Source: Flavobacteriales bacterium (lineage in GTDB: Bacteria; Bacteroidota; Bacteroidia; Flavobacteriales_D; Sanyastnellaceae). From it: DNA of 44,055 nt. Position 1 is the stretch's first letter. Each line of letters starts with the position of its first letter. The notes beneath the pieces are model-generated. The model saw only the letters and a program-made list of their open reading frames with translations, made no database searches and was not told the DNA's origin. Location of the stretch: the NCBI GenBank assembly GCA_029242765.1, contig JAQWTJ010000003.1, positions 1 to 44,055 of the forward strand, in the 5' to 3' direction. Made by a program: the position numbers and the translations under genes. Shown piece after piece: positions 28,506-44,055 of this stretch.

Positions 28506-31500
28506 ATGAAAGGCTTTTTGTCTTGCGCTTTTGCCGCCCTCATTTTTTGTTGTTTCAACACCGTTTCTGCATTCACTCCAGTTCCCACGCCTCATGGCGT
28601 TGAGGATATCGAGGGTTGCATAGATCCTGACGGTTGCAACTACAACATCGACGCAACCATCGATGACGGTTCATGCACCTTTCCGGAAGGGGACTGCGAC
28701 GAATGTTGCGGACTCGTTGACGGAACAGGTTGGATTGTAGACAACGACGCTGACGACGACGGCGTTTGTGATGAAGACGAAATCGGTGGATGCTATGATG
28801 CCACTGCTTGCAACTACAACGATGCAGCCACCAATGAAGGCCCTTGTATTTATGCAGGGGAGTGCGAGGCGTGTTCGGGTGAAACCAACGGACTAGGCAC
28901 TGTGGTTATTGACGACCCCGATGCTCCTGCATTTGTTTCACCTCCTGCAGATGCCACGGAGTCATGTGACGCGGTATCTGACATACCAGAGGTTGTGGTC
29001 ACAGATTATTGCGATGACAATCCGACGATCGACTTTAGCGAGGATATAGAGCTAGGAGATTGTCCACAGAATTATGTGTCGACGCGCACGTGGACGGCCA
29101 CTGACTATGCCGGAAACGTGGCAATCCATGTTCAAGTTGTTACAGTGGAGGACACAGACGCCCCTGAGCTCAGCGCCTATCCTGCCAATGCGACGGAGTC
29201 CTGTGACGCGGTATCTACTGCTGAGACGTTGACGGCTACAGACAACTGTGATCCTGCTGTGTCGGTTGACTTCACTGAGACCAGCACGGACGCTGGTAAC
29301 GGATGCAACTACACGATCACCCGCACCTGGAGTACTGAGGACTGCTCGGGCAATGAAACGACCCACACGCAGACGATTACGGTTGAGGACAGTTCAGCTC
29401 CCACGCTCAGTGACGCTCCTGCCAATGCGACGGAGTCTTGTGACGCGGTCTCTACTGCGGCTACATTGACCGCTTCGGACAACTGTGATGATGTCGTGTC
29501 GGTTCTCTTGACTGAGCACACCCACTGGCCCAACGGCGAAAGCTGCAACTATACGATCACCCGCACCTGGAGTGCGACGGACTGCCAGGGCAACAACACA
29601 ACCCACGTGCAGACGATTGCGGTTGAGGACACGGAAGATCCTACGCTCAGTGGCGCCCCTGCCGATATTACGATTGATTGCAGTGAAGTGCTGCCTATGG
29701 GTACGAGTATTCGTTCTAATGAATTGTATGTCGCATCAACAGGATTTGATCTTGGTGATAATGAAGCTTCATATCAAGGTATTGAGGGCTTTGTAATAGC
29801 CACTACGTTCCAACTCAATTTGGAATATCAACCCGGTGTTGACAGTGATGCGGTTGATGTATTCAATAATTACGGTGAAGGCACCGTACACAATTGGATG
29901 GATCCAGAAAATTATGTGATGACCATTAATGAAGCAGGTGGTTTGCCTGCTTGGAATTATAGCGCCGCTGAAGCTGATGAAATGGACGCGGATCTACAAT
30001 GGACAATTACCGGTTGGGGTCAAACCATACTTGGTGGTATTATAGAACCCGGTAGACTTGTTGTCACTACAGATTATAGACCTTTTGATGCGGATGCATA
30101 TGTAAATGATATTGAAGTGTTCGAAGGCACTATTTTACAGGAAGTCATTGCCTATACGTTTGAAGGTGATGCCGCTGATATTGGATCGGGCACACAGCTT
30201 GGCGTGGAGTTGTTAGAGGATAATCTCCCAGCAGATGCCACAGAGGAATGTGACAATGTTTCTGATGCAGCCACTTTGACTGCGACAGACAACTGCCAGG
30301 ACGTGGATGTCAGCCTCGCAATCGATACGGTCGGTCACGACGACGACTGCCCGCACAATTACACCATCACGCGGACTTGGTCTGTGGAAGACTGCGCCGG
30401 CAATTCAAACTCTCACACGCAGACCATCACCGTGGAAGACTCAACTGCGCCTACGTTCAATGAGGACTTGCCAGCGGACGCTACGGAGGAGTGCGACGCC
30501 ATTTCTTTAGCGGCGGTCTTGACGGCCAGCGACAACTGCGATATGGTTGAAGTGGACTTCACGGAAACGAGCGCTGAAGGCGACTGCCCACAAGAGCAGA
30601 CCATCACGCGCCACTGGACGGTGAGCGATTGCGCCGGTAACACCACCGAGCACACGCAGACCATTGAAGTGGTTGACACGACGGCTCCAGATGCGCCTGC
30701 AATTACGTGTCCAGATGATGCGACTCTATTATTGGACGATGACTGCTGGGTCGATTCGAGTACAGCTGCCACTGATGAGGCTACGGCCACAACCAGTGAC
30801 AACTGCGACGACGCGCCTTCAATGGACATCACTCACGAGGACAGCGCCCCGATTATGTCGTGCTCTGCAACCGATGGTGAGGCCAATGGCAGCTACAGCT
30901 TTACGCGGACCTTCACGGCCACGGCCACGGATGCTTGTGGAAACGTGAGTGAGTCGACCTCTTGCACGCAGACCATTACGGTGAACGATGAGATCGCGCC
31001 GGAGTTTGATGCGAGCGATGTGTTCTCGATAGCCTGTGACGAATACAGCGATGAGGATCAGTACGAAGTGGCTGCCTCAGACAATTGTGATGGAGACGTG
31101 ACCATCACCATCTTGAGCAACAACGGTGCGAGCGGAAGCTGTGCAGGAACCATCTATCGTATATACGAAGCAACCGATGATTGCGGCAACGCTACGGAAT
31201 TCGGACAGACAATCAACTTGATTGACTCGGTGAACCCTGTGGTGACGATTGATTTTTGCCCTGGAGATGTGACGCTTGACGCAGATGCTGATTGTGATGC
31301 TGATACGGGCACAGATGATCAGGGCATGGCCACGGCCAGTGCTACAGACAACTGTGACGAAGATCCTGAGGTGAACATTGAAGTGAGCGACAGCGATCCT
31401 GTTTCAGTGTGCGAGGGCAGTTACAGCTTCACGCGGACGTTCACGGCTACGGCAATGGATCACTGCGAAAACACGCATACGGCGTCGTGCTCACAGCTGA

Positions 31501-34500
31501 TCACGGTTCAAGATGTGACCGACCCAACTTTGTCAGACGCCGCAGATAAGACGGTCGAGTGTGACGGTATGGGCAACACGGACGACTTGGATGCCTTCCT
31601 CGCCACCCACGGTGGTGCTGAGGCCAGCGACAATTGTAGCGAGATTACTTGGAGCGATGACTTCACAGCCTTGAGCGACGATTGCGGTGCAACCGGTTCG
31701 GCTACAGTGACCTTTACGGCAAGCGACGACTGCGGAAACAGCAGCTCGACTTCGGCTACGTTTACCATTGTAGATACGACTGATCCAGAGATTACAGCCG
31801 ACGAAACGACCGCGGTCCTGTGCGACGAGTTTGACATGGATGCATTGTACGCCATCACGGCAAGCGATGATTGCGGTTCAGCAACGATTGAAATCACCAC
31901 GCAAGCGGAAGTGAGCGGTGCATGCGCCGGTTCATACTACCGTTTGTACACAGTGACGGACGAGTGCGGTAACATCTCAACCTTCAACCAAACGGTTGAC
32001 TTGGTCGATGAGACGGACCCTGAGTTTGTTGAAGATTTGCCAGCGGATGCGACTGAAGAGTGCGATGCAGTTTCACCGGCTTCAGTCTTGACAGCCACGG
32101 ACAACTGCGACGACGATGTCGAAGTGAACTTCTCGTCTTCTACAGACTATGGTGACGATGATTGTGTGCATACGTACACCATCACGCGGACTTGGTCTGT
32201 GACGGATCATTGTGATAACACCACGACCCACACGCAAACGGTGACGGTAGAGGACACGACGAGCCCTGCGTTTGTCGAGGACTTGCCAGCTGATGCGACC
32301 GAGGAGTGCGACGCTGTATCGGACGCTGCTACCTTGACGGCGACGGACAACTGCGATACAGCCATCACGGTTGATTTCTCAGAGACTTCGTCGGACGATG
32401 ATGATTGTGCCAATGACTACACCTTGACACGCACGTGGACGGTGACCGATTGTGCAGGCAATACGACTTCGCATACGCAAACAGTGACAGTGGAAGACAC
32501 AACGGACCCAGCGTTCGTTGAGGATCTCCCAGCTGATGCCACAGAGGAGTGCAGCGCAGTTTCAGACGCTGCTACCTTGACGGCCACTGACAACTGCGAT
32601 GCTGTTGATGTGGAGTTTGAAGAGACCACCTCTGACGACGACGATTGCGCAAGCGACTACACCATCACACGGACTTGGACGGTGAGTGATTGTTCCGGCA
32701 ATGAAATCTCCCACACCCAGACCATCACGGTGGAGGACACGACGGACCCTGCGTTTGTCGAGGCCTTGCCTGCGGATGCTACTGAGGAGTGCGACGCAGT
32801 GTCGGACGCCGCAGTCTTGACGGCGACGGACAACTGTGACGATGTGACGGTTGAGTACTCAGAGTCTACGGCTGACGATGATGATTGTGCCAATGACTAC
32901 ACGATTACGCGTTCCTGGACCGTGAGCGACTGCTCGGGCAACTCGACTTCGCACACTCAGACCATCACGGTGGAGGACACGACGGACCCTGCGTTTGTCG
33001 AGGCCTTGCCTGCGGATGAAACGGTGTCTTGTGAGGCCGTGCCTGCAGCTGACACCTTGACGGCCACGGACAACTGCGACGATGTGACGGTGGACTTTGA
33101 GGAGAGCAACACCTCAGGTGATTGCGACCAGAGCTACACGATTACGCGGACTTGGAGTACGAGCGACTGTTCGGGCAATGACATCTCCCACACCCAAGTG
33201 GTAACTGTGGTGGATGAAACAGCTCCAGAGTTGACGGTGCTCTACGGCGGAGACGCTGCAGCAGATGCTGAAGTGGATTGTGCTGACGAGCTCCTCGAGT
33301 TCACATCAAGCGCCACAGACAACTGCGGTGATGTGACCATTACACATGCAATCGACACGGTCAGTTCTGATGAGTGTGGAAACAGTGTGGTGGACCACAC
33401 GTTCACTGCTCTAGACGAGTGCGCCAACGAAACGGTCCAGACCTTCACGTTGACGGTTCAAGACGGTATCGCGCCGCAGTTCACAGAAACCTGTGGTCTT
33501 ACCAACGGTCAATCGAACGACGTATGCTGCGAGAATCACCTTGGCGATGTCACCATCCCAGATGCTTGTGATACGGAGGCTACAGATAACTGCAGCGATG
33601 TCGATATCGACTATGAGCAGACGTCTGTGGGCGAATATGCTCCGACGGAGGATGTCGAGCGTTTCTGCACAACGGCCAATCCTGCGGCCTTCGCCGATGG
33701 AGAGACATGCAACGGATACGATCCACACGCACTCCGCTTGTTTGGCTTCCCAGGTGACGAGTTCTATACGGCATCTGATGCCGGATTGGTTGAGCACCTG
33801 GTCAACGGCGACATGCACATCACGCAGACGGTCTACGGAACGGATGATCCAACAACTGGATTTGTGCTGGATGTGACGTACACGGATGGTTTGGACTTCG
33901 ACGCATGGATTTCGCAAGATTTCCCAACGAGCTACAAGCGCGATTGCGGCGATTTGACCGATGATCACGAAAACTGGATGTACTACGTGATGAGCAGCGG
34001 TACGCTGACCGGCTTTGGTGACATGGACGGTGTGACGCTCAGTTTGAGCCATCAGCCAGCCAACCACTACTTCGGCTTCCAAGTCGGTGTTGCAGCCAAT
34101 AACATGAACGACAACTACGGTTATAGTGGTTGGTTGATGTGGTCTGGTGCCATTGGTGAGGACGAGCTCATGGGCTCTGGAGACATCTTCGGTGATCTGG
34201 ACTGCTGCTTGCCATATGAATTGGTCCGCACGTACACAGCTTCAGATTGCACGGGCAATGAGACGGAGTTCAGCTACACGCTCAACATCACCGGTGAGGA
34301 GTGTGAAGATGGAGGTTCTGGAATCTCGGGCGGTCAGTCCTCGGACGACCATTCTGCGACGGTTATCGGTGGAGCAGGAAGCACGAACAAGATTCCAATC
34401 TCTGTGACGAATCTCACGCCGAACCCTACGGCAGATTATTCTCAGCTCGGGTTTGTGGTGATTGATGACATGCGGATTCGCGTGGACATGATGACCATGC

Positions 34501-34658
34501 AAGGCGTGCTTGTTGAAGAGCTGTTCGATGGATTGGCCGCAGGCAATGTGGTTCACATGCTGGATATCAATGCAGACGCGTTGCAAAGCGGTATGTATCA
34601 GATCCGCTTGTCGAGCAACCAGTACTCGATTGTGAAGAAGCTCTTGGTCACCGACTAA
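28506..34658 (+). CDS. Giant HYR-repeat adhesin-like protein with T9SS sorting domain
   Basis: A 2050-residue secreted, strongly acidic protein. Residues 1-22 are a signal peptide (LSCAFAALIFCCFNTVSA). Next come two Cys-rich modules, 'GCIDPDGCNYNIDATIDDGS' at ~37 and 'GCYDATACNYNDAATNEGPC' at ~96. From ~137 to ~1690 there are about 17 HYR-like units of ~80 residues, each beginning D-x-x-x-P and carrying 'PADATEECDAVSDAATLTAT', DNC, 'ITRTWSVTDC.GN..THTQTI' and VED. Two non-repeat inserts break the series (~398-571 and ~1700-1910). The last ~85 residues are a type A T9SS sorting domain: 'NLTPNPTADYSQLGF', then 'DINADALQSGMYQIRLSSNQ' and a Lys-Leu ending. HYR units are immunoglobulin-like and often mediate adhesion. 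Surface display and Ca2+ binding are inference from the family and the Asp content. Single-gene transcript flanked by promoter and terminator. Confidence 0.93.
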   Translation: MKGFLSCAFAALIFCCFNTVSAFTPVPTPHGVEDIEGCIDPDGCNYNIDATIDDGSCTFPEGDCDECCGLVDGTGWIVDNDADDDGVCDEDEIGGCYDATACNYNDAATNEGPCIYAGECEACSGETNGLGTVVIDDPDAPAFVSPPADATESCDAVSDIPEVVVTDYCDDNPTIDFSEDIELGDCPQNYVSTRTWTATDYAGNVAIHVQVVTVEDTDAPELSAYPANATESCDAVSTAETLTATDNCDPAVSVDFTETSTDAGNGCNYTITRTWSTEDCSGNETTHTQTITVEDSSAPTLSDAPANATESCDAVSTAATLTASDNCDDVVSVLLTEHTHWPNGESCNYTITRTWSATDCQGNNTTHVQTIAVEDTEDPTLSGAPADITIDCSEVLPMGTSIRSNELYVASTGFDLGDNEASYQGIEGFVIATTFQLNLEYQPGVDSDAVDVFNNYGEGTVHNWMDPENYVMTINEAGGLPAWNYSAAEADEMDADLQWTITGWGQTILGGIIEPGRLVVTTDYRPFDADAYVNDIEVFEGTILQEVIAYTFEGDAADIGSGTQLGVELLEDNLPADATEECDNVSDAATLTATDNCQDVDVSLAIDTVGHDDDCPHNYTITRTWSVEDCAGNSNSHTQTITVEDSTAPTFNEDLPADATEECDAISLAAVLTASDNCDMVEVDFTETSAEGDCPQEQTITRHWTVSDCAGNTTEHTQTIEVVDTTAPDAPAITCPDDATLLLDDDCWVDSSTAATDEATATTSDNCDDAPSMDITHEDSAPIMSCSATDGEANGSYSFTRTFTATATDACGNVSESTSCTQTITVNDEIAPEFDASDVFSIACDEYSDEDQYEVAASDNCDGDVTITILSNNGASGSCAGTIYRIYEATDDCGNATEFGQTINLIDSVNPVVTIDFCPGDVTLDADADCDADTGTDDQGMATASATDNCDEDPEVNIEVSDSDPVSVCEGSYSFTRTFTATAMDHCENTHTASCSQLITVQDVTDPTLSDAADKTVECDGMGNTDDLDAFLATHGGAEASDNCSEITWSDDFTALSDDCGATGSATVTFTASDDCGNSSSTSATFTIVDTTDPEITADETTAVLCDEFDMDALYAITASDDCGSATIEITTQAEVSGACAGSYYRLYTVTDECGNISTFNQTVDLVDETDPEFVEDLPADATEECDAVSPASVLTATDNCDDDVEVNFSSSTDYGDDDCVHTYTITRTWSVTDHCDNTTTHTQTVTVEDTTSPAFVEDLPADATEECDAVSDAATLTATDNCDTAITVDFSETSSDDDDCANDYTLTRTWTVTDCAGNTTSHTQTVTVEDTTDPAFVEDLPADATEECSAVSDAATLTATDNCDAVDVEFEETTSDDDDCASDYTITRTWTVSDCSGNEISHTQTITVEDTTDPAFVEALPADATEECDAVSDAAVLTATDNCDDVTVEYSESTADDDDCANDYTITRSWTVSDCSGNSTSHTQTITVEDTTDPAFVEALPADETVSCEAVPAADTLTATDNCDDVTVDFEESNTSGDCDQSYTITRTWSTSDCSGNDISHTQVVTVVDETAPELTVLYGGDAAADAEVDCADELLEFTSSATDNCGDVTITHAIDTVSSDECGNSVVDHTFTALDECANETVQTFTLTVQDGIAPQFTETCGLTNGQSNDVCCENHLGDVTIPDACDTEATDNCSDVDIDYEQTSVGEYAPTEDVERFCTTANPAAFADGETCNGYDPHALRLFGFPGDEFYTASDAGLVEHLVNGDMHITQTVYGTDDPTTGFVLDVTYTDGLDFDAWISQDFPTSYKRDCGDLTDDHENWMYYVMSSGTLTGFGDMDGVTLSLSHQPANHYFGFQVGVAANNMNDNYGYSGWLMWSGAIGEDELMGSGDIFGDLDCCLPYELVRTYTASDCTGNETEFSYTLNITGEECEDGGSGISGGQSSDDHSATVIGGAGSTNKIPISVTNLTPNPTADYSQLGFVVIDDMRIRVDMMTMQGVLVEELFDGLAAGNVVHMLDINADALQSGMYQIRLSSNQYSIVKKLLVTD
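32007..33212 (+). repeat. Five tandem ~240-bp HYR-coding repeats
   Basis: The most regular part of the repeat region. Units begin at 32007, 32253, 32496, 32736 and 32976, with lengths 246, 243, 240, 240 and 237 bases, always a multiple of three. Protein sequence is nearly constant at the unit boundary (VEDTTDPAFVE.LPAD) and varies in the acidic middle. 32718-32778 and 32958-33018 are identical over 61 bases. This is the pattern expected of recent in-frame duplication or gene conversion. Confidence 0.85.
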
Positions 34659-34758: not shown

Positions 34759-36324
34759 TTAGCAGGGCAAGCCGAAAACGCCAAGAATGGCGAGCAAGTC
34801 GGCCACGGTTACGATGCCATCGCCATCAATGTCAGCCGTGCAATCGCCGGGGTTGCTCACTACGCATCCAAAGTCACTCAGACTGATTAGCACGTCAAGG
34901 GTGCTTACCAGGCCGTCGCCGTTGAGGTCTCCAGGGCAGCTTGGGGTGTTAGGCGTTGCGTGAAGCGTGAAGCTGTAGCCCTGGACAATGTCCACAACGG
35001 TGGCCTCGATTTGAAAGTAATGCGTCCCGGCACCCAATTCGAAGCTTGAGACCGGCGTGGTTTCAGTAGCCTCCGGCCAAGGCGTGAATACACCATCGGT
35101 GTGCCAGCCAAACGTCGCGTCTTCCGGCAGCCATTCTGTGTCAAGTGTCATGGCGGCGGCAGCATCGAGAGTTACGCGGTACACGTCGCGGTCTGCCGGC
35201 TGGGAGGCGTCCGTGCCTTGGGGCGAGAGTGCCGCCAGGTAGGTCTGCTCTGGGACGATGCCGTAGGCTGTGGCGGATTGGTCGGGCTCGTCCAAGGCGC
35301 AGAGTGTGTAGTAATGCGCGTCGGGCAAATCGAGGTGGAAAATTCCGTTGACGAAAAAGCGCTCCCGAAAAGGCGGGTCATACAAGGAGACCAGCGCATC
35401 GGAAGAGTAGGCCGAAACAATCAAGTCGTCATAGCTCGTGATCAGAGCGTATTCGATGTCGGTCGGTAGCGGGCGTTCGTTGAGTCCGATGATGGTGTCG
35501 TTTTCATCGCCATCGCAATTCACGTCGACATTCCAAAAGTCCAAGAACAAAAAATCCCACATCGTGGCGTCACTTTCTTCGCCACCAAACAAGAAGACAC
35601 CCGAATCTCCGCTGTAGGAATAGCTGGTGCGCAAGTCACGAACGGCGTCTGAGCGCTGCTCGATGTCGCCACCGAAGATGTCGCCCAAATCCTCAAGCCA
35701 ACCGACCGAGAAATTGGAGCCGGCATGCGGCGTCCCTGACGTGATGACCTTGGCGATGTGGTGGTGGGGCGGTGAGCTGGGGTCGCTCAAGTCAGATGGC
35801 GGCCAGTATTCAGGCGTTTGCAAGTACTCGCGGATGGCCAGTCCGCCCATCGAATGGGCCACCAGGACGAGTCGGTCTTCGCCTGTTGCTTGCAAGATCT
35901 CTAACACGGCGTCGGCTATGGCTAGGCCTTGTTTGGCCGCAGCAGCTTGACCGCTGAACACACCGTCTCCATTGGCAGCAAAGGTGTTGTAGCACGTTCC
36001 GTTAGGGCTGCACTCAAAGTTGTTGCTGAACACGTCGGCGTAGGCCATCGGCAAGTCGGTGAAAGGCAAGACCTCGGACAGTGTTGATGTGGCATTGGAC
36101 CCGTCGCTATTTAGGCAATATTCCAGCTGCCCACCGTCGCTCCAACCCCAATCAGTGGTCATCAAATCAACAAACTCGCTCCATATGCTGGCATCGCCAG
36201 CCAAGTTGTGCACCATTAAAACGGGACAGGGCAGGCGGGCCGGTTCTTCTTGAGCATGGGTTTGCACGGGCATGAATGCGGCCACCCCAAAGGCAAGAAA
36301 AAAAGTTATTGAATACAATCGCAC
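34759..36324 (-). CDS. Secreted lipase-like alpha/beta hydrolase with dockerin-like tail
   Basis: A 521-residue secreted hydrolase. Start is GTG at 36324 (no ATG is available before a stop). Signal peptide 'ITFFLAFGVAAFMPVQTHAQ', cut after ~24. 'PVLMVHNLAGDASIWSEFV' provides the oxyanion region and 'VLVAHSMGGLAIREYL' the nucleophile elbow with Ser158; 'SGTPHAGS' follows as in PGAP1-like and lipase families. A candidate Asp and His lie further on ('FHLDLPDAHYYTL'). Residues ~370-455 look like a small beta domain. The C-terminus has two dockerin-type repeats, 'DLNGDGLVSTLDVLISLSDF' and 'DIDGDGIVTVADLLAILGVF', each a Ca2+-binding F-hand. No T9SS sorting domain is visible. Substrate (lipid, ester) not decidable. 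Confidence 0.85.
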   Translation of the reverse strand: MRLYSITFFLAFGVAAFMPVQTHAQEEPARLPCPVLMVHNLAGDASIWSEFVDLMTTDWGWSDGGQLEYCLNSDGSNATSTLSEVLPFTDLPMAYADVFSNNFECSPNGTCYNTFAANGDGVFSGQAAAAKQGLAIADAVLEILQATGEDRLVLVAHSMGGLAIREYLQTPEYWPPSDLSDPSSPPHHHIAKVITSGTPHAGSNFSVGWLEDLGDIFGGDIEQRSDAVRDLRTSYSYSGDSGVFLFGGEESDATMWDFLFLDFWNVDVNCDGDENDTIIGLNERPLPTDIEYALITSYDDLIVSAYSSDALVSLYDPPFRERFFVNGIFHLDLPDAHYYTLCALDEPDQSATAYGIVPEQTYLAALSPQGTDASQPADRDVYRVTLDAAAAMTLDTEWLPEDATFGWHTDGVFTPWPEATETTPVSSFELGAGTHYFQIEATVVDIVQGYSFTLHATPNTPSCPGDLNGDGLVSTLDVLISLSDFGCVVSNPGDCTADIDGDGIVTVADLLAILGVFGLPC

Positions 36325-36368: not shown

Positions 36369-37154
36369 ATGAACTTTGTGAAGTTGGACGCCGCGGGCAA
36401 TGATTTTATCGCACTGGATGCTCGCGGTGGAGAGCCATTGAATTCTATTGGAAGCGGCGACATTGCGCGCTGGTGCGATAGACAGCATGGCGTGGGGGCC
36501 GATGGTGTTTTGGTGATACGCCCTTCTGCGGAGGCGGGCGTGGCCTATGTGCTGGATTTCTTTAATCCGGACGGTTCACCCGCCTTTTGCGGGAACGGTT
36601 CGCGGGCGGCCTTTTGGTGGGCACAGCAGCTCGGCGGAGCGCCTTCCGAGTTGACTTTTCGAGCCATTGACGGTCTGCACCGTGCTCGAAATGCATCGGT
36701 TGAGGTGCATTGCTCTCAGCCACCGAGTGCGACTGAGCACGGTTTTTACGTGTTCAGCGGAACGCATCATGTGGTTCGCCTATTGGCGGATGCCGCTGCA
36801 GTGGCGTCCATTGATTTACTCGCTGAAGCTCCGGCCATCCGGCATCATAAAGATTTCTCTCCCCACGGTGTAAACGTCAACGTGCTCAGCCGCTGCCCAG
36901 ACAATCAAGGGTGCTTTGCGATGCGGACATTTGAAAAAGGCGTTGAAACGGAAACTCTGAGCTGCGGAAGTGGGGCGGTGGCTGCGGCGATGGTGTTGCG
37001 GGCGGAGGGGTTGGCCACGAGTGATGCCATCCAACTCACCGCTCCGGGCGGGTCACTCAGCGTTACCTTTGTCGACACAGATATTTGGCTCGGAGGTCCC
37101 GTGCAAATGCCATTACAAGGCGAAATCTTTATTGAAGAGCACCATGATTCGTAA
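36369..37154 (+). CDS. dapF: Diaminopimelate epimerase
   Basis: A 261-residue DapF, which converts LL- to meso-diaminopimelate for lysine and peptidoglycan. The ATG at 36369 gives 'MNFVKLDAAGNDFIALDARG'. The two catalytic cysteines are both present: 'PAFCGNGSRAAF' (Cys74) and 'ETLSCGSGAVAAAMV' (Cys199), with 'DRQHGVGADGVLVI' between them. A normal-length enzyme. It begins the rightward envelope operon and overlaps the DUF4105 gene by 11 bases. Divergent from the lipase gene with 44 bases between starts. Confidence 0.96.
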   Translation: MNFVKLDAAGNDFIALDARGGEPLNSIGSGDIARWCDRQHGVGADGVLVIRPSAEAGVAYVLDFFNPDGSPAFCGNGSRAAFWWAQQLGGAPSELTFRAIDGLHRARNASVEVHCSQPPSATEHGFYVFSGTHHVVRLLADAAAVASIDLLAEAPAIRHHKDFSPHGVNVNVLSRCPDNQGCFAMRTFEKGVETETLSCGSGAVAAAMVLRAEGLATSDAIQLTAPGGSLSVTFVDTDIWLGGPVQMPLQGEIFIEEHHDS

Positions 37155-38277
37155 GGTGTTGTTCCCTCTCTTACTTCTTGTTGGCCTCTTAACAGGCTTT
37201 CCACCGTCGCTTCAAGCCCAATGGACGGATGCGGCACAGGTGAGTGTGTTGACCTGCGCACCCGGCGATGAGTTGTACTCCATTTTCGGACACTCAGCCC
37301 TACGCGTTCAGGATTTGGCACAGCGTCCAGCTGTGGATCGTGTTTTTAACTACGGCACCTTCCAATTCAGCGATGGTTTCTACGCTCGGTTCCTTCGCGG
37401 AGAACTCGTCTACACCCTTTCCGCCGCGCCCTACCACCATTTCCAACGTGAATACTTCGATGCGGGCCGCGGCATGCGCGAGCAAACACTGGATTTGACG
37501 CCTTTGCAAGTGGCAAAAGTCGCTGAGTTTTTATACTGGAATGCGCGTCCAGAAAATCGGGACTACCGCTACGCGTTCTTCTATGACAATTGCTCTTCGC
37601 GCATCCTTGATGTGCTGCGCGGGGTGCTCCGTGATGAGCTTCACGTGCCCTGCCCGGTGCGCGCAGACTCGAGTTTCCGTCAACTTTTGTGGCCAAACCT
37701 TGGAGCCGTGCCCGCGGTGCGCTTTGGGATGGACATCGTGCTGGGCATGCCGGCCGATGCGAAGCTCGGAGCATGTGGCGATGCCTATTTGCCTGATCAT
37801 TTGTTCATTCATTTGGACGAAGCAACGCTGGTCGATTCATTGGGGCGGCGTCCATTGGTCCGCCGAACTGAGAGCCTGCTTCCGCATTTGCTCGACCGTG
37901 AGCCGGAGGGAGCGGGCTGGCCAGTGGCGGCGGCTTGGCTGCTGCTGCTGATCATCGCGGTGGAGTGGCGCACAGGTCGCCGGGCAATTTCAGTTGTATT
38001 GCCATGGATTTCGGGCTTGACAGGACTGCTGATGGCGGCGTTGTGGTTTGCCACAGCCCACACCGACACCCGCCTCAACTTGAATCTACTGTGGGCCTTT
38101 CCGGGGCTGCTCTTGCCATGGCGGAAGCTTCGCCGGGCTTCGGCTTGGGCCGCCGCGTCCTTTGCCTTGCTTTTTGTGGTCTTCGAATTTTTGCCTTCGC
38201 CTCCGCAATCGTTGCACGGTGCCACTTTTCCACTCGCTTTAGCGTTGGTATTCTGCATTCGACCATGGGAAGAATAA
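37144..38277 (+). CDS. DUF4105 membrane protein
   Basis: A 377-residue protein. ATG at 37144 lies inside dapF and gives a signal peptide (VLFPLLLLVGLLTGFPPSLQ) cut near 'AQ'. The periplasmic part (~26-250) matches DUF4105 (PF13387): 'LTCAPGDELYSIFGHSALRV', 'VFNYGTFQFSDGFYARFLRG', 'YFDAGRGMREQTLDL' and 'YAFFYDNCSSRILDVLRG'. The conserved His and Cys/Asn pattern (FGHSA, NCSSR) looks enzyme-like and resembles NlpC/P60-type or LRAT-like papain folds, but I know of no proven activity. The C-terminal ~110 residues hold four or five membrane helices. Overlaps the next lipoprotein gene by 13 bases. Confidence 0.9.
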   Translation: MIRKVLFPLLLLVGLLTGFPPSLQAQWTDAAQVSVLTCAPGDELYSIFGHSALRVQDLAQRPAVDRVFNYGTFQFSDGFYARFLRGELVYTLSAAPYHHFQREYFDAGRGMREQTLDLTPLQVAKVAEFLYWNARPENRDYRYAFFYDNCSSRILDVLRGVLRDELHVPCPVRADSSFRQLLWPNLGAVPAVRFGMDIVLGMPADAKLGACGDAYLPDHLFIHLDEATLVDSLGRRPLVRRTESLLPHLLDREPEGAGWPVAAAWLLLLIIAVEWRTGRRAISVVLPWISGLTGLLMAALWFATAHTDTRLNLNLLWAFPGLLLPWRKLRRASAWAAASFALLFVVFEFLPSPPQSLHGATFPLALALVFCIRPWEE

Positions 38278-39839
38278 ATCTCGCCGTATTCGCTTCTGCA
38301 GCTGCGCTTGTTTTGTCAGTTGTGTGGAGCTCTTGTCAAGAGCCAACGCGCTGGTCTGTTCCAGTGGAAATGGCTGTTTTGCAGGACACCTTGACCGTAG
38401 CAAATTTGCTTCCGGACAGCTTGTGGACCGCTCAAGACGATGCCGTGGTGCTCAGCTATCAAGGGGTTGTTGCTCAGTTTGACTTCGGGGATCAAGTCCA
38501 ATTCTCCGACACGTCATGGACAGACGTAAACGAGTTGCCCTTTTCCGGCGGCCCTGTTCCAATTCCTCCTGGAACTGAAATTTGGGGTGAGACGGACGAA
38601 ATCGATTTTGTTGTGGACGGCGTGGATTTGCGAAGGGTCCAATTGGCCTCGGGCACGATGACCATCGGCATGAGCAGCACCATTCAGGGGCCGCTCCACA
38701 TAACTTATGAATTCCCCGGGAGCGAGTTTCCCGGTTATGACGGTCCGGTTGTCGACCTGGTGGTGGATGGGGACACCGTCATGCAGGAGGTGAACCTGGC
38801 GGGGGCGTGGCTGGTCCTAGAAAGCGATAATGGTCTGGAATTTAATAAGTTGCTTTCCTCTTTTGCCGTGTCAACTTTGGATTCTGCAGCGGATGATGTT
38901 CCCGTGTACGGCACGGACGTGACCACGGTGAGCTTCAAGTTTGAAGGCGTGAACATCGCCAAGGCGGAGGGCTGGTTCGGCCAGCCAGTCGTAGATGTCA
39001 GCGGCACCATGGGGTTGGGATCTGTCGGTCAGCTGGATCGGGCCGAGGTGCTTTGGGAAGAGATCGATTGTGAGTTGTACATGGCCAATTCTTTGGGGCT
39101 TGACTTGGCCATGACTTTGAACGGGTTTTCTCGTTGGTCCGATGGCGAATCTCTGGCACTTGAGCACCCCGCCTTCGGTCAGCAGGCCATGCTGTCGCGA
39201 GCTGTAATTTCAGAGTCGGCAGAGGGGCAGTGGACGGTTCAGCCGACCTCATCATGGACGCTTGACCTCAGCGATGAAACGACCAATGTTATTTCCTGGG
39301 CCGATCTCTTGCCCGACTCTTTGTCCTGGGACGTGGAATTGGGCTTGAACCCTTTGGGCGATGTGACCGGCGGATATGACCGCATTGACTTCGACCATTT
39401 GCCTGAGCTCATTATCGATTTGAACGTCCCGCTTCGCGTGCGCATTGATGCGCTGCAATTCAGTGACACCACTGACACCAAGGGCGTTTTTGAATCCGAT
39501 TGCGAGTCGTGTGCTCCATTTACAGGTGACTTGGTGCTTCAGGTTGACAACAGTTTTGGCCTGGCCATGACGCTCTATGCAGTGACGGTGCCCTCGTCGA
39601 GCGACTTCCTGTTCTATGAGCCCTTGCTTTTGTTAGAGGGCGCGGTGATTCCAGCTGAGGGCCAGACCACTTTACGTATCCCGATCGATTTCACCCTGTG
39701 GCGGGTGCTTTCTGAGGGCCGTGGCATTGCTTGGACCGTGGACATGAACACCCAAGGTGCGCTTGTCGAAATGACGATTGAGGACCGTGTGGTGGTGCAT
39801 GGATGGCTTGATGGGGAGTTCAATTGGGAAATCAGATGA
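38265..39839 (+). CDS. Lipoprotein of unknown function, beta-rich
   Basis: A 524-residue predicted lipoprotein. The ATG at 38265 overlaps the DUF4105 stop; the signal has 'FASAAALVLSVVWSSC' with Cys24. The mature part is beta-rich and acidic, with many Trp and repeated strands of the kind 'VDLVVDGDTVMQEVNLAGAW' and 'ISWADLLPDSLSWDVELGLN'. The word 'LLPDSL' occurs twice, near the start and again in the second half. No catalytic motif and no T9SS domain. I do not recognise the family. The 4-base overlap with the next barrel-like gene suggests a two-protein complex, lipoprotein plus barrel, at the outer membrane. Confidence 0.82.
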   Translation: MGRINLAVFASAAALVLSVVWSSCQEPTRWSVPVEMAVLQDTLTVANLLPDSLWTAQDDAVVLSYQGVVAQFDFGDQVQFSDTSWTDVNELPFSGGPVPIPPGTEIWGETDEIDFVVDGVDLRRVQLASGTMTIGMSSTIQGPLHITYEFPGSEFPGYDGPVVDLVVDGDTVMQEVNLAGAWLVLESDNGLEFNKLLSSFAVSTLDSAADDVPVYGTDVTTVSFKFEGVNIAKAEGWFGQPVVDVSGTMGLGSVGQLDRAEVLWEEIDCELYMANSLGLDLAMTLNGFSRWSDGESLALEHPAFGQQAMLSRAVISESAEGQWTVQPTSSWTLDLSDETTNVISWADLLPDSLSWDVELGLNPLGDVTGGYDRIDFDHLPELIIDLNVPLRVRIDALQFSDTTDTKGVFESDCESCAPFTGDLVLQVDNSFGLAMTLYAVTVPSSSDFLFYEPLLLLEGAVIPAEGQTTLRIPIDFTLWRVLSEGRGIAWTVDMNTQGALVEMTIEDRVVVHGWLDGEFNWEIR

Positions 39840-41056
39840 GTTGTGCTTCGATGATAGTTTCGGCGAGCATGCAGAGGGCGTTGGCGCTTGCGATCGCCTG
39901 TTTTTTGGCCTGTTGTTCGGCTTTGTTGGCGCAACAGGATGCAGCAGTTGACGGGGTGCTTGTTGATCCGGCGGTTGATTCGACGGCTGTGCTGCGACCG
40001 CACATTGAGGTGTTTTGTGGGGCGACAACTGCTTCGAACGCGATGCCGCCGTGGGTTTTAATGGGGCTGCTCTTTGGGGGTGATGTGACGGCGCCTCTGG
40101 CGGTGACCGTGGAACGCACGGATGCACGTGGGGCGGCCTTTTGGGGAGGGCGAGCCGAGGCCGGTTTATTGCTCGCTTGGCAGGAAAGGGGAGACTTGGT
40201 CCGTCCTGTGGCGTTGAGAGCGGGTTTGACGAGTCGAGCGTGGTGGGATGCGCGATGGTCTCCGGGAGCGGCGCATTTTTTATGGGGCCCCCTGGGCGGT
40301 GCCGACCCGCAAAACCAGTTGCGCAGTTTGGAAGGGACGCAGGCTCGAGGCCTGGTCACGACGGCTTTTACCTTGGAGTACAAGACCGAGAATTTGAAGT
40401 TGACTGGCCGGGTGGGGGAGGCCACAATGGGGGTTGATGGTCAGCTGAATCAGGGCGCGTTTCTGGTGGACAGCGCCCATGTTGAGGTCGCTATTGAAGG
40501 CCAATTGATCCGCACGCTGAGCCCTGGATTGATGGCGGGACTTGATGTGGAGTACCGAAACGAGCATGTTCGTGTGGGGGTAAGAAACCTAGGCGCGTAT
40601 GCTTTTCCTATGGCCGCCCATTCGCGGATGGACACTTCGGTTTCAACCCTGGGCTGGCCGCTAATTACACAGGTGTTCGATGGTGCCGAGTGGGCCCACA
40701 CTGACACAGTGGTGACTGGTGTTGAGCCTGGAGCTGTTGCGCTTTCAGGCCTTTTGCCAGCGACTTTATATGTCCACGCGCACGCCGAACGCTGGTCTGC
40801 TTCGGCTTTGTGGAATGCCTGGGCGCCACGCCCCGAGCTGATGGTGAGTCGCAGTTTTATATCCACTGAACGCCTTTCGTATTCGGCCGGATTGGCTTGG
40901 GGCGGTTGGGGCGGTTTGTCCGTGCCCGGTGGTTTGACATACACGGGAAATCAGGGTGGGAAATTGGCATTGAAAACCCGCATCGCCCCGTGGAGAGATA
41001 TCGGGATGCGCAGCACTATTTTTGTGTCCTGGACGCGCCCCTTTTATTCCTATTGA
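39836..41056 (+). CDS. Predicted outer-membrane barrel protein
   Basis: A 406-residue protein. ATG at 39836 overlaps the previous stop as ATGA; the signal peptide is 'LALAIACFLACCSALLAQQ'. The mature part has many short amphipathic strands with aromatic ends ('VEVAIEGQLIRTLSPGLMAG', 'NEHVRVGVRNLGAYAFPM', 'RLSYSAGLAWGGWGGL'). It ends in Trp/Phe/Tyr (the last residues are SWTRPFYSY), typical of an outer-membrane beta barrel. The pattern resembles DUF5723-type barrels of Bacteroidota, with low certainty. Two bases separate it from kdsA. A PorV/FadL-like role would be guesswork. Confidence 0.75.
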   Translation: MSCASMIVSASMQRALALAIACFLACCSALLAQQDAAVDGVLVDPAVDSTAVLRPHIEVFCGATTASNAMPPWVLMGLLFGGDVTAPLAVTVERTDARGAAFWGGRAEAGLLLAWQERGDLVRPVALRAGLTSRAWWDARWSPGAAHFLWGPLGGADPQNQLRSLEGTQARGLVTTAFTLEYKTENLKLTGRVGEATMGVDGQLNQGAFLVDSAHVEVAIEGQLIRTLSPGLMAGLDVEYRNEHVRVGVRNLGAYAFPMAAHSRMDTSVSTLGWPLITQVFDGAEWAHTDTVVTGVEPGAVALSGLLPATLYVHAHAERWSASALWNAWAPRPELMVSRSFISTERLSYSAGLAWGGWGGLSVPGGLTYTGNQGGKLALKTRIAPWRDIGMRSTIFVSWTRPFYSY

Positions 41057-41058
41057 TC

Positions 41059-41892
41059 ATGAGCAGTACATTGAATTTCAGTCAGAGAGAGACGGCGGGT
41101 TGGACCGCGGGCGACCGCCTTCAAATCATCGCTGGGCCGTGTGCTATTGAGGGGGAGAAGATGGCGATGAGCATTGCCGAGCACTTGATTCGCGTGTGTT
41201 CCGATGTGGGTCTTCCACTGATTTTCAAGGGCTCTTACCGCAAGGCCAACCGTTCACGTGTTGACAGTTTCACAGGCATTGGAGACGCGAAGGCCTTGGC
41301 TGTTTTGGCAAAAGTCAAAAGCGAATTCGGTGTCGCTATCACCACGGACGTGCACACCGCTGATGAAGCTAAAATGGCGGCTGAGGTGGCGGATGTGCTG
41401 CAAATTCCTGCCTTTTTGTGCCGGCAAACTGACCTGCTGGTGGCCGCTGCAAAAACGGGCCGCATCGTCAATGTGAAGAAGGGCCAGTTCCTCAGTGCAG
41501 AGTCGATGCAATTTGCCGTGGGCAAGGTTCACGACTCGGGCAACCCCCACGCTTGGCTCACCGAACGCGGCACGACCTTCGGTTACCAAGACCTCGTCTT
41601 GGATTTTCGCGGCATTCCGGTTATGCGCGCCTTTGCACCCACCATTGTCGATCTCACCCACAGTCTCCAGCAACCGAATCAAACTTCGGGCGTGACGGGC
41701 GGTCGCCCCGAGCTGATTGTCCATATGGCGCGTACTGCAGTGGCTGCTGGCGCGGACGGCGTGTTCATTGAAACGCACCCCGACCCCTCCCTTGCCAAGA
41801 GCGACGGGGCCAATATGCTGGCCCTTGATCGCTTCGCGAATTTGGCTCAGCAACTGGCCACCATGCGCTCGGCCTACCTTTCAACGCAATGA
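41059..41892 (+). CDS. kdsA: 3-deoxy-8-phosphooctulonate (KDO-8-P) synthase
   Basis: A 277-residue enzyme that condenses PEP and arabinose 5-phosphate to KDO-8-P for lipopolysaccharide. ATG at 41059 (MSSTLNFSQRE). 'IIAGPCAIEGEKMAMSIAEH' carries a Cys at residue 28, the residue of the metal-dependent class, where the metal-independent E. coli type has Asn. 'FKGSYRKANRSRVDSFTGIG', 'TTDVHTADEA', 'IPAFLCRQTDLL', 'VNVKKGQFLSAE' and 'DLVLDFRGIPVM' are family signatures. The usual length. It overlaps the next gene by 4 bases (ATGA), and the preceding gene ends 2 bases earlier. Confidence 0.96.
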   Translation: MSSTLNFSQRETAGWTAGDRLQIIAGPCAIEGEKMAMSIAEHLIRVCSDVGLPLIFKGSYRKANRSRVDSFTGIGDAKALAVLAKVKSEFGVAITTDVHTADEAKMAAEVADVLQIPAFLCRQTDLLVAAAKTGRIVNVKKGQFLSAESMQFAVGKVHDSGNPHAWLTERGTTFGYQDLVLDFRGIPVMRAFAPTIVDLTHSLQQPNQTSGVTGGRPELIVHMARTAVAAGADGVFIETHPDPSLAKSDGANMLALDRFANLAQQLATMRSAYLSTQ

Positions 41893-43658
41893 TCGCGCCG
41901 CTCCGCCCTCGGCTCTACAGGCCCCTCCAGGTGTTGCTGCCTCTGCTCCTTTGTTCGTCCGCACTATTTGGCCAATCCCTTGACACGCTCGAGGTGCGAT
42001 TCATCCACGGTGCGGGTGATGAAATCGGCCTCCGTCTGTGGTCCGATACGTCAGGTGTTCTTGTTTTGGGCTCCACAACGGCCCAAATCACGGCGAATCC
42101 CGTTGACGGAAAACAGTGGTTTTTGACCGCTTTTGATGACAATTTGAGTGATTTATGGCATTTAAATGGCGTTTTTGTGCAAAATGCGTCCATTTCTGAT
42201 TCGACCGAATCAAGCTCTCCGGCCTCTATCGATATATGCGACATCACCCGAGGGGCTGACGTCTTTGACTCGGACCTCCCCGGCGCTTCTCCAGTGGAGC
42301 CCACCGCTTGGATTTTAGCCAATCACTTGGCTTCGCCCCCCGAGGATCCCGACTCTGGCGAACCTCTCATTGGCGGTTGGCGCGCTCGCCTCTCGCGGTT
42401 TTCTCCCCAGGGCCAAGTGGAGTCTTTCGATTTTGACGAGCATCCTGAATTGGCGGGTTGGACCCAAGCGGCTTGCCTTGTCCACGATACGTCCAGCACT
42501 CTTGCTGCGGACGCACCTCGCATATGGGCTGTCGGCACCCATTATGATGCGCCTTTCGGCCTTGCCACCGTGTGGTGGGCTGCGGCCGACCTGGAACCTT
42601 CACCAACGACGATCCCCCCTGCGTCTCCTGCTTTTTACGACATCGGGCTGGCCTCTCTCGAGCACTTTGCGCCCTTTTCCGGCCTGCAGGGCGGTCTTCG
42701 CGCGGTGGACGCGGACCTCTATGGGGACACCCTCTACATTGCTGCCGCTCTTGACGGTGCCCAAGGCGCATCGGCTCGCGCTTTTGTTTGTCTGGCCACC
42801 CGTGACACCCCCGGAGGGTCGTCACTCACGGCCGATTTCACGCCGCACTCCATGTTCGTTCTCGATATGGACAGCGTTCGCCCGGCAGCCCTTGCGGCCG
42901 GCCCTCTAGGTGTCGCTCTTACGCTCACCCGCGACCGATCTGATGGCACCACCGACCACGTGTTCGCGCTCCTAAAAAAAGGCGCTGCTGATGCGCCCTC
43001 CGACGAGCTGGGCGAGTTGTGGCGCGTTGAACCCTTGAACGATGAAAACCAGGTCGCACGCGCCGTCGTCTGGGCCGGCGAGAGCATCGTGTTTGCTTCC
43101 TACTCTGAGATTTTTGGTGCGGGCGGCTCGGGAGCTCGACTCGAAAAGCGCTACTTCGAGAACGGTGCCTGGCACGCCGGCCACACCTTCGGTGGCACGG
43201 CCGACGAAGACATCTTTGATCTAACACGCGACCATGCGGGGCGCATTCTATTCACGGGGTGGAGCCGATCCAACCCCGACCCCGAATCGCAAGACGGCAG
43301 CCGTGACGCTTGGTTGGTGCGCGCTCCGAGTCACAATTTTGCCACAGCTTACGAGGAAAACGTGGGCTTCACAGCTGTGGGCTATTTCCTTGGCTTGGAT
43401 AATACCTCCTCTTTCTTGGCCCCTTCCTCAGCTCGCCCGCTTCGGCCGTACCCCAACCCGGCCCTCCGCAATCAAACCGTCCGCCTGCTGCAGTCGAGCT
43501 CCACCTCCGAATTGAGCCTCACCTCATTGGACGGCCGTCTGCAATCGAAGCCCTTTCATGCGCCCTTCAGTTTTGCACAATTCCCACAATTGAAGGCCGG
43601 CGCATACATCCTCACTTCTCAAGGCCGCTCGGCTCGTCTCATTTTGCGTGACCAGTAG
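41889..43658 (+). CDS. T9SS-secreted protein of unknown function
   Basis: A 589-residue secreted protein. ATG at 41889 overlaps the kdsA stop. The signal peptide is 'LQVLLPLLLCSSALFGQS'. The mature region has repeating beta strands separated by Gly/Asp turns, such as 'PRIWAVGTHYDAPFGLATVW', 'ADLYGDTLYIAAALDGAQGA', 'AGESIVFASYSEIFGAGGSG' and 'HAGRILFTGWSRSNP', suggestive of a beta propeller. The last ~75 residues are a type A T9SS sorting domain: 'PLRPYPNPALRNQTVRLLQS' and the ending 'AGAYILTSQGRSARLIL'. No catalytic site is recognised. It closes the dapF operon, which is otherwise enzymes and envelope proteins. Confidence 0.88.
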   Translation: MIAPLRPRLYRPLQVLLPLLLCSSALFGQSLDTLEVRFIHGAGDEIGLRLWSDTSGVLVLGSTTAQITANPVDGKQWFLTAFDDNLSDLWHLNGVFVQNASISDSTESSSPASIDICDITRGADVFDSDLPGASPVEPTAWILANHLASPPEDPDSGEPLIGGWRARLSRFSPQGQVESFDFDEHPELAGWTQAACLVHDTSSTLAADAPRIWAVGTHYDAPFGLATVWWAAADLEPSPTTIPPASPAFYDIGLASLEHFAPFSGLQGGLRAVDADLYGDTLYIAAALDGAQGASARAFVCLATRDTPGGSSLTADFTPHSMFVLDMDSVRPAALAAGPLGVALTLTRDRSDGTTDHVFALLKKGAADAPSDELGELWRVEPLNDENQVARAVVWAGESIVFASYSEIFGAGGSGARLEKRYFENGAWHAGHTFGGTADEDIFDLTRDHAGRILFTGWSRSNPDPESQDGSRDAWLVRAPSHNFATAYEENVGFTAVGYFLGLDNTSSFLAPSSARPLRPYPNPALRNQTVRLLQSSSTSELSLTSLDGRLQSKPFHAPFSFAQFPQLKAGAYILTSQGRSARLILRDQ

Positions 43659-43843: not shown

Positions 43844-43920
<77 letters not shown>

Positions 43921-43924
43921 GAGG

Positions 43925-43948
43925 GTCGGCGCGCGGACGCGCGCCGAC
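43925..43948 (+). other. GC-rich hairpin between the two tRNA genes
   Basis: A perfect 10-base stem (43925-43934 with 43939-43948) with a GGAC loop, followed by TTGCTTTT. It could terminate transcription after tRNA-Ala or act as a processing structure in a joint tRNA transcript. The stem is nearly all G/C. Confidence 0.7.
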
Positions 43949-43957
43949 TTGCTTTTC

Positions 43958-44029
43958 GGCTCCATAGTTTAATGGATAGAATAAGGGTTTCCGGTACCCT
44001 AGGTCCAGGTTCGATTCCTGGTGGAGCTA
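43958..44029 (+). tRNA. tRNA-Arg (CCG)
   Basis: Cloverleaf with acceptor GGCTCCA/TGGAGCT (G-T first pair), a weak D stem GTTT/GAAT made partly of G-T pairs, anticodon stem AGGGT/ACCCT with loop TTCCGGT (anticodon CCG), and T arm CCAGG-TTCGATT-CCTGG. The full CCA is not encoded: the discriminator A is followed by CAA. Confidence 0.95.
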
Positions 44030-44055
44030 CAATGTTCGCTACTTCGGGGGCATTC

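Follow-up and report, generated by a model that had tools for sequence, protein, structure and literature searches.

Which genes of an envelope operon belong together, and what might their products build? The question is raised by a 44,055-nucleotide stretch of a Flavobacteriales bacterium (family Sanyastnellaceae; GenBank assembly GCA_029242765.1, contig JAQWTJ010000003.1, positions 1 to 44,055 of the forward strand), here called the window, which is one of the 110 contigs that make up a 2.2 Mb genome. A preliminary description of the window had singled out a trio of genes, for a DUF4105 protein, a lipoprotein and a barrel, as a candidate for an undescribed envelope system. We find that the lipoprotein and the barrel are the durable unit, an apparently undescribed pair that stands side by side in many Bacteroidota and persists where the neighbouring dapF, Lnb-type (DUF4105) and kdsA genes are absent. 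The two genes are:

38265..39839, plus strand: first gene of the conserved pair; encodes a lipoprotein (lipobox Cys24) that belongs to no named family and whose modelled relative is all-beta
39836..41056, plus strand: second gene of the conserved pair; encodes a DUF5723/FadL-like beta-barrel of the outer membrane

Our analysis makes it reasonably probable that they encode a two-gene outer-membrane complex in which the barrel holds the lipoprotein.

The association was followed in three samples. Among 100 near relatives, a single-sequence search matched the lipoprotein in 84 genomes, from which 80 loci were fetched and studied with the window (G037 was not fetched, G013 was added later as L195, G044 has only a short locus, L020, outside the analysis, and L111, among the 80, is a pair of the B-type described below). 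Five of these 81 loci have fewer than 700 bases downstream and fall outside the barrel count; in the remaining 76 the barrel comes directly after the lipoprotein in 75 (51/51 in the window's family, 24/25 in other families). Profile searches matched the lipoprotein in 190/247 genomes of the class and 66/198 of the phylum. Of 40 class loci, a non-random sample hand-picked from the listed matches of the 190 positive genomes at one to three per family and covering 31 families, 39 have the barrel next. Twenty phylum-wide loci were likewise hand-picked from the 66 positive genomes, seven of which lie in the window's class or nearer, and a DUF5723-type barrel is next in 17 (16 by profile, L221 by Pfam). 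Two of the 20, L225 and L226, belong to the window's class; outside it, 15 of the remaining 18 are paired. The barrel profile was built iteratively from open reading frames (ORFs) of these same loci, with Pfam as the independent check. Named records with relatives are mostly Flavobacteriales metagenome-assembled genomes, with one each from Cryomorphaceae, Crocinitomicaceae and Chryseobacterium gleum.

The other four genes of the run served as points of comparison:

36369..37154, plus strand: dapF, diaminopimelate epimerase (TIGR00652, 139.6 bits, cut-off 114.65); family-specific neighbour outside the conserved pair
37144..38277, plus strand: putative lnb-like lipoprotein N-acyltransferase (DUF4105: Lnb_N and Lnb transmembrane domain; PF13387 and PF25221 over cut-off), with putative catalytic His50 and Cys150
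41059..41892, plus strand: kdsA, 3-deoxy-D-manno-octulosonate (KDO)-8-phosphate synthase (TIGR01362, 355.7 bits); recurrent, not obligatory neighbour
41889..43658, plus strand: secreted propeller-like protein, possible cargo of the type IX secretion system (T9SS); frequent neighbour of the lipoprotein–barrel pair

In the window's family dapF lies upstream in 41/48 loci, and the Lnb gene directly precedes the lipoprotein in 51/52; in the other near-relative families both counts fall to 0/27, and Lnb is near the pair in 0/40 class loci. Downstream of the barrel, kdsA occurs in 44/46 loci of the window's family and 0/24 of the other near-relative families, and it is near the pair in 11/40 class loci; its presence there, in families remote from the window's, points to a link of long standing. 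Some upstream genes of other families are presumably, by the look of their sequences, RarA, an LpxL-like acyltransferase, FtsK or a thiolase. Because the barrel is so constant in all three samples while Lnb and kdsA, as built-in controls, are not, the pair rather than the trio is the durable unit. Separation of the genes in relatives had been named beforehand as the observation that would count against the trio. It is found for the DUF4105 gene, which refutes the trio; the lipoprotein and barrel stay together across class and phylum, which supports the pair and bears out the earlier suspicion as far as these two genes, a couple with no described role, are concerned.

Other genes follow the lipoprotein at a few loci. 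At L177 (5848-6924), the sole class locus of the 40 without a barrel, a permease gene of the LptF/LptG kind, for lipopolysaccharide (LPS) export, comes right after it. Outside the class, a phosphoglycerate-kinase-like gene, named from its sequence, follows the lipoprotein relative in place of a barrel at L217, L224 and L229. At L206 and L207 the relative is followed, directly or after one gene, by a different outer-membrane-like protein of 300-320 residues.

A second pair, encoded on contig 92 of the source genome (L193:4868-7958), comprises a lipoprotein of 560 residues and an overlapping DUF5723 barrel gene (473 residues); the adjoining gene is prolyl-oligopeptidase-like, again by sequence only. 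In trees of 82 pairs built with FastTree, 11 pairs of what we call B-type and 71 others split identically for lipoprotein and barrel, with no misplaced row, and the B-type clade has a support of 0.994 in the lipoprotein tree and 1.0 in the barrel tree. The B-type set comprised 10 of 20 fetched stretches plus L111. Omitted were five stretches without a lipoprotein match (L200, L201, L204, L211, L212), L206 and L207, for want of a suitable neighbour, L208 and L209, two paired loci left out by choice, and L210, a 100-base filler; since B-type loci were partly chosen via DUF5723 matches, their pairing rate is biased. In two B-type proteins (L198:3579-5963 and L199:4665-7118) the barrel is joined to thrombospondin-3 repeats and an OmpA domain and would thereby be anchored to peptidoglycan. 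Within the window's family (n=38), tree distances of lipoprotein and barrel correlate most strongly of ten pairings (r 0.923; lipoprotein–Lnb 0.881, lipoprotein–kdsA 0.826), with a partial r of 0.747 given kdsA and Lnb.

Family assignment of the barrel depends largely on its relatives. DUF5723 (PF18990) is matched by 10 of the 11 rows of the barrel alignment A4 at E≤5 (best 1e-20) and by eight of ten further barrels, and occurs in 96/100 near relatives, often in several copies. The window barrel is tied to these relatives through the iterative profile search and gene position. PF03349 (Toluene_X/FadL) gave no match in the window barrel or the A4 barrels, and the barrel profile found no match among PDB sequences. 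The barrel of L112, 18% identical to the window copy, was modelled from an 11-row alignment with a predicted local distance difference test (pLDDT) score of 83. The model superposes on FadL with Z 17.6 over 304 residues (root-mean-square deviation, rmsd, 5.7), and TodX and CymD are also among its best fold matches. Chains from entries of the beta-barrel assembly machinery (BAM) score Z 15.1 (9n2d_B, F. johnsoniae), 14.5 (9hiv_F) and 14.3 (9hjm_F), and those from T9SS entries 14.6 (8gl6_F) and 14.3 (6h3i_F).

The lipobox cysteine C24 of the lipoprotein is common to all 65 rows of alignment A1, a figure that is not unbiased, as the rows were selected from 81 sequences by omitting near-duplicates and short or ill-started ones. 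Seven sequences were kept out partly for a poor start or lipobox as judged by script, or for truncation, and most of them show a similarly placed cysteine. Pfam gave the 65 members chance-level matches only and no family, DUF4270 not being among the matches. Longer frames, of about 690 to 990 residues, hold many of the more distant matches, and in many cases only the last ~200 positions are spanned. The L112 lipoprotein (23% identical to the window copy) was modelled from 12 rows at pLDDT 85 as an all-beta protein, whose best fold match is 4h3w (Z 14.9, 281 residues, rmsd 8.8; next entry Z 7.6); the lipoprotein profile also matches 4h3w weakly by sequence (E 0.0081). No BAM chain is among the listed fold matches of this model, which excludes nothing. 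The 4h3w entry is BDI_1231 of Parabacteroides distasonis, an uncharacterised secreted protein of 330 residues, against 524 in the window lipoprotein, and it has no described function. In the open-licence literature, the one paper found to name 4H3W is an unrelated one on ice in crystals. We found no open-licence paper on DUF5723, PF18990, BDI_1231 or the lipoprotein–barrel pair, and a broader search gave just PMC12611786 and PMC12578637; this absence is tentative.

Those two papers describe the closest parallel. BamG is a FadL-family 14-strand barrel that holds the lipoprotein BamH in the Bacteroidota BAM complex, and in 2025 the two were reported to be central to the assembly of the outer membrane in the phylum (PMC12611786, PMC12578637). 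PMC12578637 also reports a paralogous BamG2-BamH2 pair in a putative operon of B. thetaiotaomicron, which makes this barrel-and-lipoprotein type of operon a known one. The window pair likewise joins a FadL-type barrel to a lipoprotein partner and is widespread in the phylum. It differs in that its lipoprotein lacks a DUF4270 match and its barrel a PF03349 match, and in that the F. johnsoniae BamG and BamH genes have distant locus tags whereas the window genes are adjacent. A separate DUF4270 protein elsewhere in the source genome matches 9hjm_G, a DUF4270 chain of the P. gingivalis BAM entry (E 6.5e-7); going by that record, DUF4270 would be BamH. The genome also encodes a separate FadL-family (PF03349) protein (G000:C6; locus L213), for which a sequence search returned no BAM chain, only 3dwo (E 0.0033). 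With DUF4270 and FadL-family proteins encoded elsewhere, and neither family matched by the pair, we rejected the idea that the pair is BamG-BamH themselves; it is probably a parallel rather than the same system.

SusCD is also an outer-membrane barrel and a lipoprotein in a two-gene unit. In contrast to the 22-strand SusC barrel, the window barrel is ~400 residues long, and its modelled relative is FadL-like in fold.

The DUF4105 gene, treated as unknown in the preliminary description, falls in a described family. DUF4105 is now named Lnb in Pfam, after the Bacteroides lipoprotein N-acyltransferase, and the window protein scores 90.3 bits for PF13387 (Lnb_N; cut-off 22.2) and 51.3 bits for PF25221 (5TMH_Lnb; cut-off 25.2). 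H50 and C150 are invariant in 9/9 aligned sequences and may be the catalytic pair of the permuted NlpC/P60 fold described in PMC12994826. The NCBIfam equivalog NF051878 is matched at positions 9-382 of 394 with E 4e-61 but with 207 bits against a cut-off of 550, so the gene is filed under the Pfam Lnb family and not as a certified equivalog. The protein thus looks like the known lipoprotein-finishing enzyme: as with Lnb of Bacteroides, both domains and the His and Cys are present and it occurs where Lnt is absent, whereas its score far under the equivalog cut-off keeps it a putative enzyme. In the window's family 54/61 genomes encode Lnb, whereas 0/61 have an Lnt match that passes the cut-off; weaker, sub-cut-off Lnt matches occur in 28/61. 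Across the 100 near relatives, Lnb passes its cut-off in 70, Lnt in 25, both in four and neither in nine (Fisher p 5.5e-11, uncorrected for kinship); in one of the four, G093, Lnb is only a 51-position fragment. Since Lnb takes the place of Lnt, its substrates should be lipoproteins at large. PMC13103446 cites the Lnb work and PMC12345273 mentions Lnb in passing; PMC5080379 is a further cited source.

Most details of the gene run in the preliminary description hold. Against the ORF coordinates, its overlaps of 11, 13 and 4 bases, the 2-base gap and the final 4-base overlap are exact to the base; Pfam and NCBIfam agree with dapF, kdsA and DUF4105; and the barrel label is upheld by the DUF5723 matches of relatives and the FadL-like model. 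The label 'T9SS cargo' is plausible, as 24 of 34 aligned propeller relatives carry a Por_Secre_tail at E≤0.01, but the window copy stays below cut-off (TIGR04183 19.5 bits against 23; PF18962 E 0.22). DUF5122 propeller matches occur in 12/34, and the window copy has neither at E≤0.01. Short overlaps are commonplace in bacterial operons and are by themselves no evidence of the stoichiometric production that had been read from them. We took ATG 39836 as the barrel start, the alternatives being TTG 39824 upstream and ATG 39869 downstream; a 4-base stop/start overlap at the lipoprotein–barrel junction is possible in 49/77 loci of the near-relative set. Elsewhere in the window, 28506-34658 encodes a protein of 2050 residues in which HYR-like four-cysteine domains recur (PF23237, six stretches), and 34759-36324 on the minus strand, divergent from dapF, an alpha/beta-hydrolase-like protein with weak dockerin-like C-terminal matches, all below curated cut-offs. 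Genes for tRNA-Ala (GGC) and tRNA-Arg (CCG) lie at the window end (43844-44030).

How might such a pair work? A FadL-fold barrel of the DUF5723 kind would be embedded in the outer membrane and would grip the beta-sandwich lipoprotein through its lipid anchor and extracellular loops, as BamG does BamH. The two proteins would thus bind each other, with the lipoprotein facing outward. In the window the pair is carried in a longer envelope operon with dapF, the Lnb-type enzyme, kdsA and the secreted propeller, and the Lnb-type enzyme would add a third acyl chain to lipoproteins generally, including that of the pair. Most likely, though we hold this view weakly, the pair serves as an outer-membrane platform, structural or for assembly, and does not import nutrients.

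Several results weigh against a lipoprotein–barrel complex. Seven lipoprotein loci have no adjoining barrel match (L046, L177, L206, L207, L217, L224, L229), the DUF5723 genes of the five stretches omitted from the trees have no adjacent lipoprotein match, and the lipoprotein profile finds nothing in 57/247 class genomes. Neither the window barrel nor that of L153 has a Pfam DUF5723 match, so the independent check misses both. Partial correlations are also retained with the propeller (lipoprotein–propeller 0.523, barrel–propeller 0.395), and because lipoprotein–barrel and both propeller pairings all pass the permutation test (0 of 2000), that test supports the pair without singling it out; shared rate changes can, moreover, inflate tree-distance correlations. 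The export signal is ambiguous: at least two acidic residues among the six after the cysteine occur in 25/65 lipoproteins (against 17% of background windows from the same proteins), C-x-[KR]-[DE]-[DE] in 14/65 and the strict C-x-K-[DE]-[DE] in 3/65, while 42/65 begin with two basic residues. The window lipoprotein reads CQEPTRW from its cysteine, with one acidic residue. With such counts, we rejected the motif as proof of surface exposure.

Among other explanations, a transporter fares best. The barrel would be a FadL-type channel for hydrophobic molecules and the lipoprotein its capture or lid subunit, SusCD-like in principle, which is compatible with a complex. FadL, TodX and CymD, the best fold matches, are uptake channels, and the several DUF5723 copies of many genomes would fit different substrates. 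We nevertheless judge import unlikely, as two B-type barrels end in OmpA domains and the neighbours named so far, a minority of the neighbouring ORFs, are envelope or housekeeping genes; there may be catabolic genes among the others.

Barrel, lipoprotein and propeller might instead make up a complex at the cell surface by which the propeller is exported or anchored, in the manner of T9SS barrels such as PorV and PorQ. This, too, is compatible with a complex. The role of PorV is described in PMC12578637. A propeller relative lies downstream in 61/70 near-relative loci (40/46 in the window's family, 21/24 in the others) and in 23/40 class loci as read from the locus rows; the frequent T9SS tails, the resemblance of the barrel to 8gl6_F and the retained lipoprotein–propeller correlation point the same way. 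On the other side, 17/40 class loci have no same-strand propeller within the next three ORFs (some are cut by a contig end), and the 20 phylum-wide loci give only two weak propeller matches, both upstream (L216, L231). SprA is present in 240/247 class genomes against 190/247 for the lipoprotein, so type IX secretion does not require the pair. Five of the seven SprA-negative genomes also lack the lipoprotein (Fisher p 0.008, uncorrected for kinship), a one-way tendency, and we rejected dependence of the pair on type IX secretion. A propeller complex is distinctly doubtful.

That the genes merely adjoin one another in an envelope operon, and that their products make no complex, is improbable. 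It would account for the coming and going of dapF, Lnb and kdsA beside the pair and for DUF5723 genes that have no lipoprotein; against it, the two genes stay together where the other neighbours tested have gone, and the pair is present in two copies in one genome with matching ancestry. A single dedicated system of Lnb, lipoprotein and barrel, favoured by the position of Lnb in the window's family, is very improbable given its distribution elsewhere and the general substrate range expected of a stand-in for Lnt.

Our preferred reading, a barrel holding its lipoprotein, regroups the locus: contrary to the trio first proposed, Lnb is not part of the conserved unit. Carried further, the pair might be a second machine made of a FadL-fold barrel and a lipoprotein, alongside BamG-BamH. 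It would be of great age in the phylum, duplicated whole and sometimes tethered to peptidoglycan, and would assemble or insert a class of outer-membrane components. These could be linked to LPS, because of kdsA and the one LptF/LptG neighbour. We put this extension forward as a speculation with a low likelihood. As a further FadL-type barrel and lipoprotein pair, kept across many families, the two genes are a direct target for bench study.

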